Source of the DNA: a virus | Length of the DNA stretch: 24,399 nucleotides | Reading direction: 5' to 3' (one strand) | IMG/VR virus record: IMGVR_UViG_3300028392_002162 | Coordinates: 1 to 24,399 of that record | Shown: piece by piece, positions 20,420-24,399 of the stretch | Layout of the letters: the number at the start of each line of letters is the position of its first letter | Position numbering within the stretch: position 1 is the first letter of the stretch | Translations under genes and position numbers: made by a program | The notes under the pieces: generated by a model | Seen by the model: only the letters and a program-made list of their open reading frames with translations | Told to the model about the DNA's origin: nothing | The model's database searches: none

Positions 20420-21769
20420 TTATCGCCCCCTCGGCGGTGGGTTAGGTGGTAGATTACCGCCGTCGTTACCATTGTCAGCCTGCGGCCTGAGCAACTGCGA
20501 TAGACTCTGACGACTCGGTATATTACCTTGATCTGATGTTGGCACGGTATACGGATTGTTAACAAAACTAGAACGCTCAGTTTTATTTGATAATCCCCAA
20601 TCAAGAGGTGTGCGTACATCATCGCTTATAGCTAGCCACATGCTACCATTGTATCTAAATAATCTATTTGGAAAATAATCTAATCTCAAACAATAGTCTC
20701 CTGACGCTGGTGATAATGGAAAACTTACTCCCGGTGTAACTGGTAGACCGTTTGGTGCCATGTTGTCACCAGTTAGATATCCCATGGTATAACCAAAGGA
20801 TTTCGGGGTCGTACCTTCGCCGGGCTCTGATCCATCTACGGTATTAGACTGATCAGTATAGAGCCCTTCTCCGGACGGCTCCCCAGAGGGAGTAGTGGGT
20901 AAGATATAAAAAGAAACATTATCGTAACCACTAAGTGGGACATCTATATTCGCCTGGGTCACTAGCGAATCATTAATAGAGAGATCTACTTTGCGCGTGG
21001 ATGAAATATCGCCTAGTGTAGTAGGTTTTTCTATCAGTGCCCAGTAGTTTGGGTCGTTGATATCGGTTCCCGGAGGAACATTTTTTGTAGCTTCGTAATA
21101 TTTTCCGCCATTATCAACTACCATACCTGCCGGATAAAAATTTCCATTATCCCAGATGTTGTCTGGCATCAGTGGCTGATTTATGATCTGTTGATATTCT
21201 TGTGCGTTGACCATTGGGGTGGCTTTGACACGCCACAAGTGTGGTAACCAAGTTTGACTGAATCCTTCGGCAGCGTAAGCGGCATCTTGAATCACATAAT
21301 ATTTAGGCAGGGCTCTGGTTATACTTGTGTTAAGAGGATAGTAGTCTTTTAGATTAGGCAATTCTAAAACGTCTCCGGACATTAACTTACGACCATAAGT
21401 GTCTATCATGTCGTTATAATGAAACGTGATAAAAAGAGTATCATTGTTTAAAAATAACCCAAACTGAGTCAAGTCAAAATCAATATCACTGTGTGTATAA
21501 ACACCTCGCATGATATAAATGTTTGGATCATATGCGCGGTCACGGTTTTCTAATAGTAATAAGTCCTCTATGAACATGGGATTTTGACTAGTGTATACTG
21601 GTAGGGTGGCATCGGCATTTCCGGGATTATCGCTGGTATCCACAATTGGGCCCATATATTTGTGAACAAATATGTCAAGACCTCCAACTTGGTAACGTTC
21701 AGATATGGTGCGGTCTAAAAACTGATAGTCAGATGTTCTGTTGGGGCGATAAAGACTGAGGCGTGGAAT
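20420..21769 (-). CDS. gp14: Neck protein, gp14-like, with probable ATT start
   Basis: From the first ATG (21655) the frame gives 411 residues. The frame stays open 38 codons further upstream, and those codons read as a conserved N-terminus (PRLSLYRPNRTSDYQFLDRT; VGGLDIFVHKYMGP). The only sensible start there is ATT at 21769, 9 nt after a strong AGGAG. The body has LLLLENRDRAYDPNIYIMRG, FDLTQFGLFLNNDTLFITFH, LMSGDVLELPNLKDYYPL and QTWLPHLWRVKATPM. These match the layout of T4 gp14 (head-completion/neck protein) and, as I recall, marine homologues more closely. T4 gp14 is 256 residues. The C-terminus is Pro/Gly/Asn-rich. It lies directly before gp15, as in T4. Neck function is well supported by sequence and order; the exact start is inference. 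Confidence 0.78.
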   Translation of the reverse strand: MPRLSLYRPNRTSDYQFLDRTISERYQVGGLDIFVHKYMGPIVDTSDNPGNADATLPVYTSQNPMFIEDLLLLENRDRAYDPNIYIMRGVYTHSDIDFDLTQFGLFLNNDTLFITFHYNDMIDTYGRKLMSGDVLELPNLKDYYPLNTSITRALPKYYVIQDAAYAAEGFSQTWLPHLWRVKATPMVNAQEYQQIINQPLMPDNIWDNGNFYPAGMVVDNGGKYYEATKNVPPGTDINDPNYWALIEKPTTLGDISSTRKVDLSINDSLVTQANIDVPLSGYDNVSFYILPTTPSGEPSGEGLYTDQSNTVDGSEPGEGTTPKSFGYTMGYLTGDNMAPNGLPVTPGVSFPLSPASGDYCLRLDYFPNRLFRYNGSMWLAISDDVRTPLDWGLSNKTERSSFVNNPYTVPTSDQGNIPSRQSLSQLLRPQADNGNDGGNLPPNPPPRGR

Positions 21770-21778
21770 TTTAGTGAT

Positions 21779-21783
21779 CTCCT
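21779..21783 (-). promoter_or_regulatory. Shine-Dalgarno site before a non-ATG start of the gp14-like gene
   Basis: On the minus strand AGGAG is followed after 9 nt by ATT at 21769. No ATG, GTG or TTG occurs in this frame between it and the ATG at 21655, which has no such site nearby. Confidence 0.6.
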
Positions 21784-21796
21784 GGTAATCTATACG

Positions 21797-21804
21797 TATT
21801 TAGC
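21797..21804 (-). promoter_or_regulatory. Late-promoter-like octamer GCTAAATA for the gp14-gp15-Nudix operon
   Basis: The minus-strand GCTAAATA is identical to the plus-strand sites at 1097, 17657 and 23285. By analogy with T4, transcription would begin near 21790, just ahead of the AGGAG at 21783-21779. Confidence 0.65.
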
Positions 21805-21814
21805 TTGCAAACGG

Positions 21815-21843
21815 TTGACATTAAATACCAGAATGTGTATAAT
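21815..21843 (+). promoter_or_regulatory. Perfect sigma70 promoter (early), leaderless spacing
   Basis: TTGACA (21815-21820), a 17-nt spacer and TATAAT (21838-21843) give a full consensus host promoter. Six nt separate the -10 box from the A of the ATG at 21850, so transcription should start at or within a base or two of the start codon. Confidence 0.85.
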
Positions 21844-21849
21844 TATGAT

Positions 21850-22104
21850 ATGCTGACAGATCTTACTAATCGAATAACTAGGGCTGAGAACCAGATTTTC
21901 ACTATCAAAAACAAGCAGATTCGTCGAGATCTAGCAAAAATGCTAGCCACCATCGATGCTGCCTACACTGAAGCAGACAAGGAACTAGTGGTGTGTAGAA
22001 GAATACAGCGCACCACTATACGTTTTACAGAATTACATAAGAGGATAGCGGATTTGCTGGATAATTTAGAGCAGCACATTACTCTAGCTCTATTATTAGG
22101 TTGA
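21850..22104 (+). CDS. Small helical protein of unknown function (84 aa), probable early gene
   Basis: The ATG at 21850 is chosen because the perfect sigma70 promoter just upstream would start transcription there; an in-frame TTG at 21805 lies upstream of the -35 box and so outside that transcript. The protein is rich in Lys, Arg, Glu, Leu and Ile with heptad-like spacing (LTNRITRAENQIFTIKNKQI; RFTELHKRIADLLDNLEQHI), suggesting long, possibly coiled-coil, helices. No Shine-Dalgarno is visible. I do not recognise the family. Its position next to other early genes suggests a small host-takeover or regulatory protein, but that is a guess. Confidence 0.6.
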   Translation: MLTDLTNRITRAENQIFTIKNKQIRRDLAKMLATIDAAYTEADKELVVCRRIQRTTIRFTELHKRIADLLDNLEQHITLALLLG

Positions 22105-22129
22105 CTTTTTTACAATTTTAGTATACAAT
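22101..22129 (+). promoter_or_regulatory. Sigma70-like early promoter, leaderless spacing
   Basis: TTGACT (22101-22106), a 17-nt spacer and TACAAT (22124-22129), each 5 of 6 matches to consensus. Six nt separate the -10 from the A of the ATG at 22136. The -35 box overlaps the last codons of the preceding gene. Confidence 0.8.
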
Positions 22130-22135
22130 ACGGAT

Positions 22136-23281
22136 ATGATTAAAAAACTTAACACTATTAAACGCTTAAAACCTTCAAACGCTGATGCTACCTATCTAGG
22201 TCCTGAACCTGAGTGGTTGGAACAACCTGCTGAGGGTTTTAGAATCTCTACTATATCTCGAGCATTTAACTGGTACAATCAATTTTATGGCAGGAAAGAT
22301 GCCAAAGATATGATTGCCACTTATTTAGATTTGAATGCTAAAAGTCAAGATGCCAAACTGATTCGTGGGGTACCCGACAGCCAGATACGTATAACTATAG
22401 GTTGGATCTGTCGCATGACCTTGCTGGGGCTAATCTTGACAGATTATGAACAATCCATCGTCGATGATGAAATCGCGAGATTATTAGCTATTGTCCAACC
22501 CGCACCTAAGCCTGTTGATAACGTACTACAACAAGAACAGATAAAACTAACCATCCAAGATCATTTGCGTGAAAAAGCCGATGCTTGCGCCGGCGAGCTA
22601 GAAGGATTGTTTGACGATTTTATTGTCGCCGATGCCAAGATCTCTGACAAATTTAAGCCTATGACGGTGCTGCGCACTATGAATATAGCCCCTCAGATGG
22701 TGGGTACCATCACTAAAGTATGGCAGTTGCGCATACAAGAATTTAATGAAGTACTAGCTGGCAAAGATGATCAATTGGTGGAAGGATACAGCCATTTGAC
22801 CAAAGCACAATTAAAAAATTGTGTAAAATTCTGTGAACTTGTTATAAGTGATTGCGAATCTTATATTAATATAAAGAAAACTGAACGCAAACCACGAGCA
22901 AGGAAAGCGATTAGTCCGGAAAAATTAACTGCTAAATTTCGTTATCTTAAAGAATTTAAAGAGCTAGAACTTAAGTCAGAGCCTGTCACTAAATTAGTCG
23001 AAGCTGCCGAAGCATTCTTATTTGATTCTGCTAAACGCAAACTGATTTACGTCGCAGCCGATAGTCATGTGGGTACTTTTACTGTCAAAGGATCTGCTAT
23101 CGTGGGATTCGACACACTACGTACTGTGTCTAAAACTTTGAGAAAACCCGCTGAACAGTTAAAGCTGCTATTAGCGGGCGGCAAGCCGGCTATGCGCAAA
23201 GCATTTAAAGACATCAAAGCCACTGAAGTAAAATGGAATGGGCGTGGTAATGATGACTTATTGATATTGAAAGCATGGTGA
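22136..23281 (+). CDS. Conserved phage protein of unknown function (381 aa), probable early gene
   Basis: The ATG sits where its sigma70-like promoter should start transcription, and no Shine-Dalgarno is visible. The protein is mainly helical and charged. Segments include PEPEWLEQPAEGFRISTISR then AFNWYNQFY near the N-terminus, QIRITIGWICRMTLLGLIL around aa 80-100, a basic stretch KKTERKPRARK near aa 250, and a C-terminal section with YLKEFKELELKSEP, KRKLIYVAADSHVGTFTVKG and KWNGRGNDDLLILKAW. I recall similar unnamed proteins in marine T4-like phages. The basic region could bind nucleic acid, but nothing proves it. It lies just upstream of gp13, and read-through RNA would include the gp13 leader hairpin. 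Confidence 0.75.
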   Translation: MIKKLNTIKRLKPSNADATYLGPEPEWLEQPAEGFRISTISRAFNWYNQFYGRKDAKDMIATYLDLNAKSQDAKLIRGVPDSQIRITIGWICRMTLLGLILTDYEQSIVDDEIARLLAIVQPAPKPVDNVLQQEQIKLTIQDHLREKADACAGELEGLFDDFIVADAKISDKFKPMTVLRTMNIAPQMVGTITKVWQLRIQEFNEVLAGKDDQLVEGYSHLTKAQLKNCVKFCELVISDCESYINIKKTERKPRARKAISPEKLTAKFRYLKEFKELELKSEPVTKLVEAAEAFLFDSAKRKLIYVAADSHVGTFTVKGSAIVGFDTLRTVSKTLRKPAEQLKLLLAGGKPAMRKAFKDIKATEVKWNGRGNDDLLILKAW

Positions 23282-23284
23282 TAA

Positions 23285-23292
23285 GCTAAATA
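23285..23292 (+). promoter_or_regulatory. Late-promoter-like octamer GCTAAATA before gp13
   Basis: GCTAAATA lies 22 nt before the ATG at 23315. With T4-like spacing, transcription would start near 23299, at the first base of the loop of the hairpin at 23293-23311. Confidence 0.65.
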
Positions 23293-23311
23293 TAAGGATG
23301 GAGAGTCCTTA
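23293..23311 (+). promoter_or_regulatory. Hairpin holding the gp13 ribosome binding site in its loop
   Basis: TAAGGA (23293-23298) pairs with TCCTTA (23306-23311) around the loop TGGAGAG, which carries GGAG, 11 nt before the ATG at 23315. Late transcripts starting near 23299 would lack the left arm, while read-through from the upstream early gene would carry the whole hairpin. Confidence 0.5.
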
Positions 23312-23314
23312 CAC

Positions 23315-24085
23315 ATGGCATTAGAAACCCAATCCACTCTAGAAACACTAAAACAAAATTTAATCGAATATGTCCGTCTACAACTAGCAGATGAGATAAT
23401 CGATGTTGAATTAGATGCTAGTCATTATGAGTCAGCTTATCGTAATACTATAGGGACTTATCGTCAGCGGGCGCAAAATGCCTACGAAGAGAGCTACATC
23501 TTCATGGAGCTAGTAGAAAATGTAAATATCTATGATTTACCCCAAGAAATCATACAAGTTAGACAGATTTTCCGTAGAACATTCGGCGATTCAACTGGAC
23601 CTTATGCTTCAAATTTTGATCCGTTTAGCCAAGCCACACTTAATGTTTACCTGATGAATTTTAATGTATCGGGCGGTTTGGCAACTTATGATTTTTATAG
23701 TCAATATGTAAAATTAGCTGGACGTATGTTTGGCGCTTATATGAATTTTACCTGGAATCAAGTTACCAAAAAGTTACAGTTGATACGTGATCCCAAAGGT
23801 ACGGGCGAAGAAGTTTTACTTTGGACGTATAATTTGAAACCCGAAGTTAATTTACTGTCAGATTTTCAAATTCAGCAATGGATTAAAAATTACATGTATG
23901 CTAACTGTAAAATGATAATAGGCGATGCTCGTGAAAAGTTTGCGAGCATATCCGGACCACAAGGTCCTACATCATTAAATGGCGCTGCGATGAAGGCAGA
24001 TGCTAAAGAAATGATGGCCCAGTGCCTGTTAGATCTTAAGAATTATGTTGATGGCTCGGCCCCAATTACCTGGGTTGTTGGATAA
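23315..24085 (+). CDS. gp13: Neck protein (head completion), gp13-like (256 aa)
   Basis: The sequence matches gp13 neck proteins of marine T4-like phages, as I remember them, along its whole length: VELDASHYESAYRNTIGTYR, QRAQNAYEESYIFMEL, IYDLPQEIIQVRQIFRRTFG, YDFYSQYVKLAGRMFGAYMN, FTWNQVTKKLQLIRDP, VLLWTYNLKPEV, then AREKFASISGPQGPTSLNGA and LKNYVDGSAPITWVVG. In T4, gp13 and gp14 complete the head after DNA packaging and form the collar to which the tail joins. T4 gp13 is about 309 residues. The GGAG site is 11 nt before the ATG. Unlike in T4, it is on the opposite strand from gp14 and gp15 and sits among early genes with its own late promoter. Confidence 0.85.
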   Translation: MALETQSTLETLKQNLIEYVRLQLADEIIDVELDASHYESAYRNTIGTYRQRAQNAYEESYIFMELVENVNIYDLPQEIIQVRQIFRRTFGDSTGPYASNFDPFSQATLNVYLMNFNVSGGLATYDFYSQYVKLAGRMFGAYMNFTWNQVTKKLQLIRDPKGTGEEVLLWTYNLKPEVNLLSDFQIQQWIKNYMYANCKMIIGDAREKFASISGPQGPTSLNGAAMKADAKEMMAQCLLDLKNYVDGSAPITWVVG

Positions 24086-24147
24086 AAACATGCTGTAACT
24101 TGGATAATCGGTTAATAAATTCAAAGACTTATACGGTAATATTTTTC

Positions 24148-24176
24148 TTGTAATATAGGTTGCGTCGTGCTATTAT
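24148..24176 (+). promoter_or_regulatory. Sigma70-like early promoter, leaderless spacing
   Basis: TTGTAA (24148-24153, 4 of 6), a 17-nt spacer and TATTAT (24171-24176, 5 of 6). Six nt separate the -10 from the A of the ATG at 24183. The T/A repeat allows another -10 register 3 nt downstream, with a poorer spacer. Confidence 0.6.
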
Positions 24177-24182
24177 TATAGC

Positions 24183-24399
24183 ATGAGTAACTTAATGATC
24201 GACATAGAAACACTTTCAACTACGAATGATGCTGTTATATTGACTATAGCAGCACAGAGTTTTGATCCGTTTGGTCTGGGATATCTTGATAGACATTATT
24301 ATGCCAGGATAACTCTAGAAAGTCAAGAAGATCGAATAATAGATGACAACACTATCGAATGGTGGGCCACACAGCCTGAGGCTCAGTTAGAAGCATTTG
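24183..24399 (+). CDS. dexA: 3'-5' exonuclease, DexA-like, 3' end outside the window
   Basis: Seventy-two complete codons are visible. The N-terminus MIDIETLSTTNDAVILTIAA carries the DxE of exonuclease motif I (D7, E9), followed by QSFDPFG. Later, NTIEWWATQPEAQ matches the STIEWWKNQSPEA section of T4 DexA. This places it with DexA / Rv2179c-like DEDD exonucleases, which in T4 degrade single-stranded DNA from the 3' end. The remaining acidic motifs lie outside the window. The ATG is chosen because it sits where the upstream promoter should start transcription; no Shine-Dalgarno is present. Confidence 0.82.
   Translation, partial: MSNLMIDIETLSTTNDAVILTIAAQSFDPFGLGYLDRHYYARITLESQEDRIIDDNTIEWWATQPEAQLEAF

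Follow-up and report, generated by a model that had tools for sequence, protein, structure and literature searches.

Does the neck gene gp13, a virion gene that directly follows a gene with a predicted host-type promoter, carry a translational switch that keeps it silent on early transcripts? The locus lies near the 3' end of a 24,399-nt stretch of viral DNA (IMG/VR record IMGVR_UViG_3300028392_002162; hereafter the window), which comes from a T4-related jumbo myophage and covers a fragment of its genome. The gp13 protein matches phrog_211 (E 4e-27), and its nearest named relatives, mostly phages of 280-490 kb, are at most 43% identical. The order on the + strand is sigma70-type promoter, phrog_11903 gene, 3 nt, GCTAAATA, hairpin (23293-23311) and gp13 (Table 1). 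The answer proposed here, which I consider likely on comparison of sequences, is that the gp13 leader is a T4-type switch combining a late promoter with a hairpin at the ribosome binding site (RBS), in which the late start removes early silencing.

Table 1. Features of the gp13 locus, in positions of the window.
Feature	Position	Strand	Remarks
Neck protein gp13 (head-tail adaptor Ad2; 256 aa)	23315..24085	+	phrog_211
Gene adjoining gp13 on its 5' side, 381 aa, phrog_11903	22136..23281	+	putative early gene
T4-type late promoter octamer GCTAAATA	23285..23292	+	motif class also at gp18 in relatives
Hairpin left arm TAAGGAT	23293..23299	+	mostly 5' of the predicted late start
Predicted late transcription start	23298	+	octamer end + 6, by the T4 rule
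Shine-Dalgarno (SD) GGAG of gp13	23300..23303	+	within the hairpin loop (23300-23304)
Hairpin right arm GTCCTTA	23305..23311	+	interval from SD to start codon
sigma70-type promoter TTGACT-17-TACAAT	22101..22129	+	-10 end to next ATG, 6 nt
Consensus sigma70-type promoter TTGACA-17-TATAAT	21815..21843	+	12/12 match; possible extra source of early read-through

An earlier note on this DNA had proposed early read-through from 22136, and in sequence terms this source is real: the promoter is conserved and no terminator was called before gp13. An equivalent of the promoter, scoring at least 10.5 of 12.5 and having the form TTGACN-17-TAtAaT, precedes the phrog_11903 gene in 100 of 107 distinct relatives, and a scan of the + strand from 21600 to 24399 called no terminator, hence none between the sigma70-type promoter and gp13. 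No late octamer was present in the 90 nt 5' of the phrog_11903 gene among the 60 relatives listed. The PA5oct homologue of this gene, EST35_0192, has no virion-MS note, while the neighbouring gp13 and gp18 have one. I infer from this arrangement that the sigma70-type promoter may be active early and that its transcripts may run on into gp13. In most relatives only 6-7 nt separate the -10 element from the start codon of the phrog_11903 gene, an ATG, so that the mRNA of that gene is probably leaderless, and the TTGAC of the -35 element overlaps the TGA stop of the preceding gene. Placed as it is after a putative early gene and ahead of a late one, the hairpin might be an intrinsic terminator or attenuator of early transcription, but this is scarcely credible: no T-run follows the stem, the scan just described called nothing there, and in relatives the right arm continues straight into the ATG.

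The hairpin itself can be read directly in the window, as the earlier note had it: TAAGGA (23293-23298) and TCCTTA (23306-23311) form the stem, TGGAGAG (23299-23305) lies between them and the ATG is at 23315, while the octamer, found at 23285-23292, ends where it was said to end. A closing G-U pair (T23299-G23305) lengthens the stem to 7 bp and leaves GGAGA as the loop. The accompanying doubt, that the block might be partial because the stem counts just 6 bp and its loop carries GGAG, is eased by the opening energies of the window given below and by T4 soc, whose SD likewise sits in the loop. By the T4 rule, which puts the octamer at -13 to -6, late RNA would start at about 23298, one base off the 23299 proposed before, and RNA starting there is predicted to fold weakly. 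The window alone gives no above-chance signal for the hairpin, which emerges only with relatives: the long leader folds at -14.4 kcal/mol (z -0.83, 38 of 200 shuffles being equally good), CTAAATA matches number 7 against 7.45 expected, without enrichment, and an Rfam scan returned nothing relevant.

Because GGAG sits in the loop, the opening energy of the SD core alone is blind to such a lock (0.0 kcal/mol on the long RNA of the window) and was rejected as its measure. The cost of freeing the whole initiation region, from 14 nt 5' of the start through the start codon, was the second measure tried and was adopted after the SD-only measure had proved uninformative; the predicted late RNA was taken as the RNA starting at octamer+6. 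So measured in silico, opening costs 10.1 kcal/mol on the long RNA of the window and 3.9 kcal/mol on its predicted late RNA. At the 96 distinct sites with a homologue of the 22136 gene directly upstream, the medians were 10.5 kcal/mol (long) and 2.9 kcal/mol (late), as against a long-late difference of 1.8 kcal/mol in the shuffled-leader control, and across loci the RBS opening energy exceeded this control (Wilcoxon p ~2e-17, uncorrected for shared ancestry). Under the identical script the T4 positive controls fell from 16.2 to 3.9 kcal/mol for e and from 16.8 to 3.6 kcal/mol for 49, and T4 soc showed no drop with the opening measure (7.0 long vs 7.1 late kcal/mol). Folded in this way, e and 49, two of the T4 genes to which the earlier note had pointed, share the geometry of the gp13 leader, and the T4 precedent is documented (PMC3014915, PMC2988022).

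Conservation of the stem was assessed among relatives. The collection held 142 distinct gp13 sites, from IMG/VR loci and ten cultured-phage records, and the stem tests used the 88 distinct IMG/VR leaders, 87 of which were testable. Shared ancestry makes these sequences non-independent, a dependence that the p values leave out of account. In most of the 88 leaders the stem runs from 0-2 nt past the octamer to the ATG or just before it, and GGA(G) falls within the loop or next to it. Since a MAFFT alignment of these leaders misregisters the stems, arm swapping was chosen over column counts. A strong stem is kept in 67 of the 87 leaders, compared with 40.4 expected on arm swapping, and there are 47 distinct stems overall. 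The own-arm stem score is 11.42, as against 6.54 (sd 0.39) when right halves are dealt among loci and 7.56 for the highest of 500 such permutations. Near relatives show the replacements in pairs, AGAGAAC/GTTCTCT against AAGGAAC/GTTCCTT and GGGGAC/GTCCCC against AGGGAC/GTCCCT; only same-register changes of this kind were relied on, because some apparent double changes stem from a shifted stem register. The search for compensatory changes that the earlier note had suggested therefore found arms preserved by paired substitution, the opposite of the unconserved arms that it took as refuting its proposal. In every strong case, late RNA beginning at octamer+6 would retain 0-4 bp of the stem.

About one quarter of the relatives have no strong stem, among them several in which a radical-SAM gene is inserted just 5' of gp13. 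Read-through would still be expected at these stemless loci, which counts against the switch. Loci with an inserted gene are weaker as a group (median long-late difference 3.8 vs 7.1 kcal/mol, p 8e-4, uncorrected), and the rule that an inserted upstream gene abolishes the lock was set aside as only partly true, many such loci retaining it. The inserted genes (radical-SAM, GDSL/SGNH-hydrolase-like and unidentified) occupy one hot spot between the phrog_11903 gene and gp13, at L013, L025, L029, L049, L062, L139, L183 and other loci.

The stem is specific to gp13. In the first 80 loci together with the window, it was strong at 45 of 58 distinct gp13 sites vs 4 of 49 other late-type leaders, mostly those of gp18. 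Two long relatives have 25 and 31 octamer sites, among which gp13 ranks fifth and fourth and only 2 and 5 show a difference of at least 5 kcal/mol. A reading in which the arms lack any function as RNA, and mark only chance or a preference for certain sequence near the SD or the late promoter, would agree with the fold z of -0.83 in the window and with octamer matches at chance level, but the arm-swap result, the 47 stems and the specificity for gp13 over gp18 in the same loci make it very improbable. A broader idea, that every late gene has such a hairpin, was also dropped, gp18 leaders being unstructured except in L007 and L020 and large differences being few at the octamer sites of the two long relatives. 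In those two the tail sheath leader (at about 6502 and 7541, respectively) carries an 8-9 bp hairpin (TCCTTATAA/TTATAAGGA) directly after the late octamer, unlike the unstructured tail sheath leader of other relatives. In two long freshwater relatives, leaders of the form GGTAAATACAA(G)CCAGAGGAC (L257, about 7151, - strand; L274, about 4581, + strand) outscore gp13 for an RBS lock.

As a late promoter, GCTAAATA departs from the T4 octamer TATAAATA by GC in the first two places, and an a/gC variant of the T4 late consensus has been described in phage Aeh1 (PMC2988020). The same octamer variants precede the tail sheath gene gp18 in relatives. A further variant, GGTAAATA, is found at 43 distinct sites, where it overlaps the upstream stop codon; it did not turn up at gp18, which makes its activity as a promoter uncertain. 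T4 spacing from the octamer predicts a late RNA without the 5' arm of the hairpin, the start being a prediction throughout. A gp55-type late sigma (phrog_234, E ~1e-23) is encoded by 7 of 9 long relatives, the window being a fragment. Elsewhere in the window, at 21655-21804 on the - strand, the late octamer GCTAAATA and an AGGAG stand ahead of an open frame (...TKIPRLSLYRPNRTSDY...) without a nearby ATG, GTG or TTG. Relative L047 has MPRLSLYRPNRTNDY with an ATG at the matching position, so that the virion gene at 20420-21655 (- strand) may start at ATT and have a longer N-terminus.

The hairpin might alternatively be a cleavage site, the early read-through RNA being inactivated or split there by a RegB-like RNase (GGAG) or by RNase III/E. 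As a rule, RNase III requires longer duplexes. Of 8 long relatives, 7 gave no match to the RegB family and the eighth a 31-residue partial one (4.8e-4). GGAG occurs in 82 of the 88 leaders, and T4 RegB does cut GGAG in early initiation regions, but its strong sites prefer an A-rich 3' context over a stem (PMC3014915). I regard cleavage as a very improbable explanation.

Cultured jumbo phages carry a gp13 hairpin as well: CCCCTAAATATG...CATGTTTAGGGG in GAP32, CBB, XbC2, Kaldavass and BF (longer in BF), GCACCCCTAT...ATAGGGGTGC in Munch, PHA46 and fENko, and GCACCTC...GAGGTGC in RaK2, 121Q, Muenster and Hallingskeid. In these phages the left arm starts 5' of the octamer and crosses it, and the SD lies in the right arm. 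This is a different build, enclosing octamer and SD, with the same predicted consequence: in GAP32, opening at gp13 falls from 23.6 to 3.3 kcal/mol, and gp13 ranks first of the 63 octamer sites in the genome. There are thus two architectures, as read from the leaders, with the left arm after the octamer in the freshwater lineage and upstream of and across it in the RaK2-like lineage. For 121Q and RaK2 (L239, 2935, and L240, 2941), the annotated gp13 start codon falls inside the right arm (ATGAGGTGC); the ATG that immediately follows the hairpin, which is the start annotated for Muenster, is more likely. Further leaders that combine a late octamer with a strong RBS stem, one that the predicted late start would cut, occur in GAP32 (JN882285) at 278826, 188413, 16348 and 235913 and in loci L312-L315, and their genes include those of an HNH endonuclease and a T5orf172 protein.

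A translational repressor offers another way to silence gp13. Whether host CsrA/RsmA or a protein of the phage, it would bind the GGA displayed in the loop, and silencing would depend on it and not just on the fold. ANGGA is a CsrA-type motif; it is found in 63 of the 88 distinct leaders, many loops reading ACGGA, AAGGA or ATGGA. However, the SD by itself requires GGA, ANGGA is missing from 25 of the 88 leaders, the SD of the cultured jumbo phages is in the stem and not in the loop, and repressor binding does not account for the constant overlap of left arm and late start. I regard it as very unlikely, if somewhat less so than cleavage.

The surroundings of gp13 provide natural controls. In the cultured jumbo phages gp13 comes after an operon that includes genes for a nudix hydrolase, a glutaredoxin and a macro-domain protein. 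The T4 homologues of such operon genes are nudE and tk.4, which belong to the T4 early region; nudE is the immediate upstream neighbour of gene e, itself under such a lock. No lock was seen in Atu_ph07 (6.6/4.9 kcal/mol) or Phosso (3.7/3.8 kcal/mol), in which the gene upstream of gp13 points away from it; the likewise divergent SCTP-2 gives a modest signal (6.4 to 1.0 kcal/mol) though read-through is not expected there. Gene 13 of T4 itself has no octamer in the 70 nt upstream.

A switch at gp13 would work as follows. Early transcripts made with host sigma70 would start before the 22136 gene and continue into gp13 without a terminator, and on this long RNA the hairpin would lock up the SD together with the nucleotides as far as the AUG, so that the 30S subunit would bind poorly and the neck protein would not be made. 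After the onset of replication, a gp55-type late sigma would direct initiation within the left arm, some 6 nt beyond GCTAAATA; because what is left of that arm would be too short to fold, the SD of the late mRNA would be free and gp13 would be translated alongside the remaining virion genes. The sequences show the hairpin and its covariation, the octamer, a sigma70-type promoter that is conserved, the absence of a called terminator and, in relatives, a late sigma; read-through, the position of the late start, the translational block and temporal silencing as its purpose would follow by analogy with T4. The observation in the earlier note is thus confirmed and comparison supports its interpretation, the mechanism being borrowed from T4.

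In T4, long early transcripts of e and 49 are silenced and late transcripts are without the 5' arm (PMC3014915). Both genes resemble gp13 in having an RBS hairpin with a late octamer directly before or within it, and in geometry and energies; they differ in product (lysozyme and endonuclease VII), in their stabler stems and in an SD within the stem. The function of the e hairpin was shown experimentally, whereas the gp13 switch is proposed here from sequence. T4 soc shares with gp13 an SD GGAG in the loop of an AT-rich stem, but encodes the small outer capsid protein and has a larger loop that holds a second TTTAAATA. The leaders of I-TevI, segB and Aeh1 mobE also belong to late genes in early or middle transcripts and have an RBS hairpin, which late RNA loses through the siting of the late promoter (PMC2988022); these are mobile genes, whereas gp13 is a core structural gene. 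For CBB, which like GAP32 is a RaK2-like phage, an ATAAATA late motif and a gp55-like sigma have been described, and a neck-gene RBS hairpin was not found mentioned in the parts of that account consulted (PMC5259590). In the open-licence literature, no published account of an RBS-hairpin switch at gp13 was found. The type of switch is known from T4; the gp13 neck gene is very probably a new gene for it, conserved across a jumbo-phage lineage.

On this reading, a textbook form of control in T4 would also act on a core virion gene, in a lineage of jumbo phages that is large and for the most part uncultured. The pairing of a late octamer with an RBS stem that is cut at the octamer's start site may serve as a simple signature in genome scans for late genes within early operons; the GAP32 scan also yields the HNH endonuclease and T5orf172 genes, and homing endonucleases are already known for such control in T4-type phages. 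Natural controls are at hand in the differing positions of the gene and in loci that have lost the hairpin, and the cultured phages allow testing. A tentative explanation, to which I give rather less than an even chance, is that gp13 is stranded behind early genes in jumbo myophages and that early neck protein is harmful, so that the lock was kept or rebuilt at least twice, in two architectures. If this is true, the timing of gp13 would be a checkpoint of head-tail joining.
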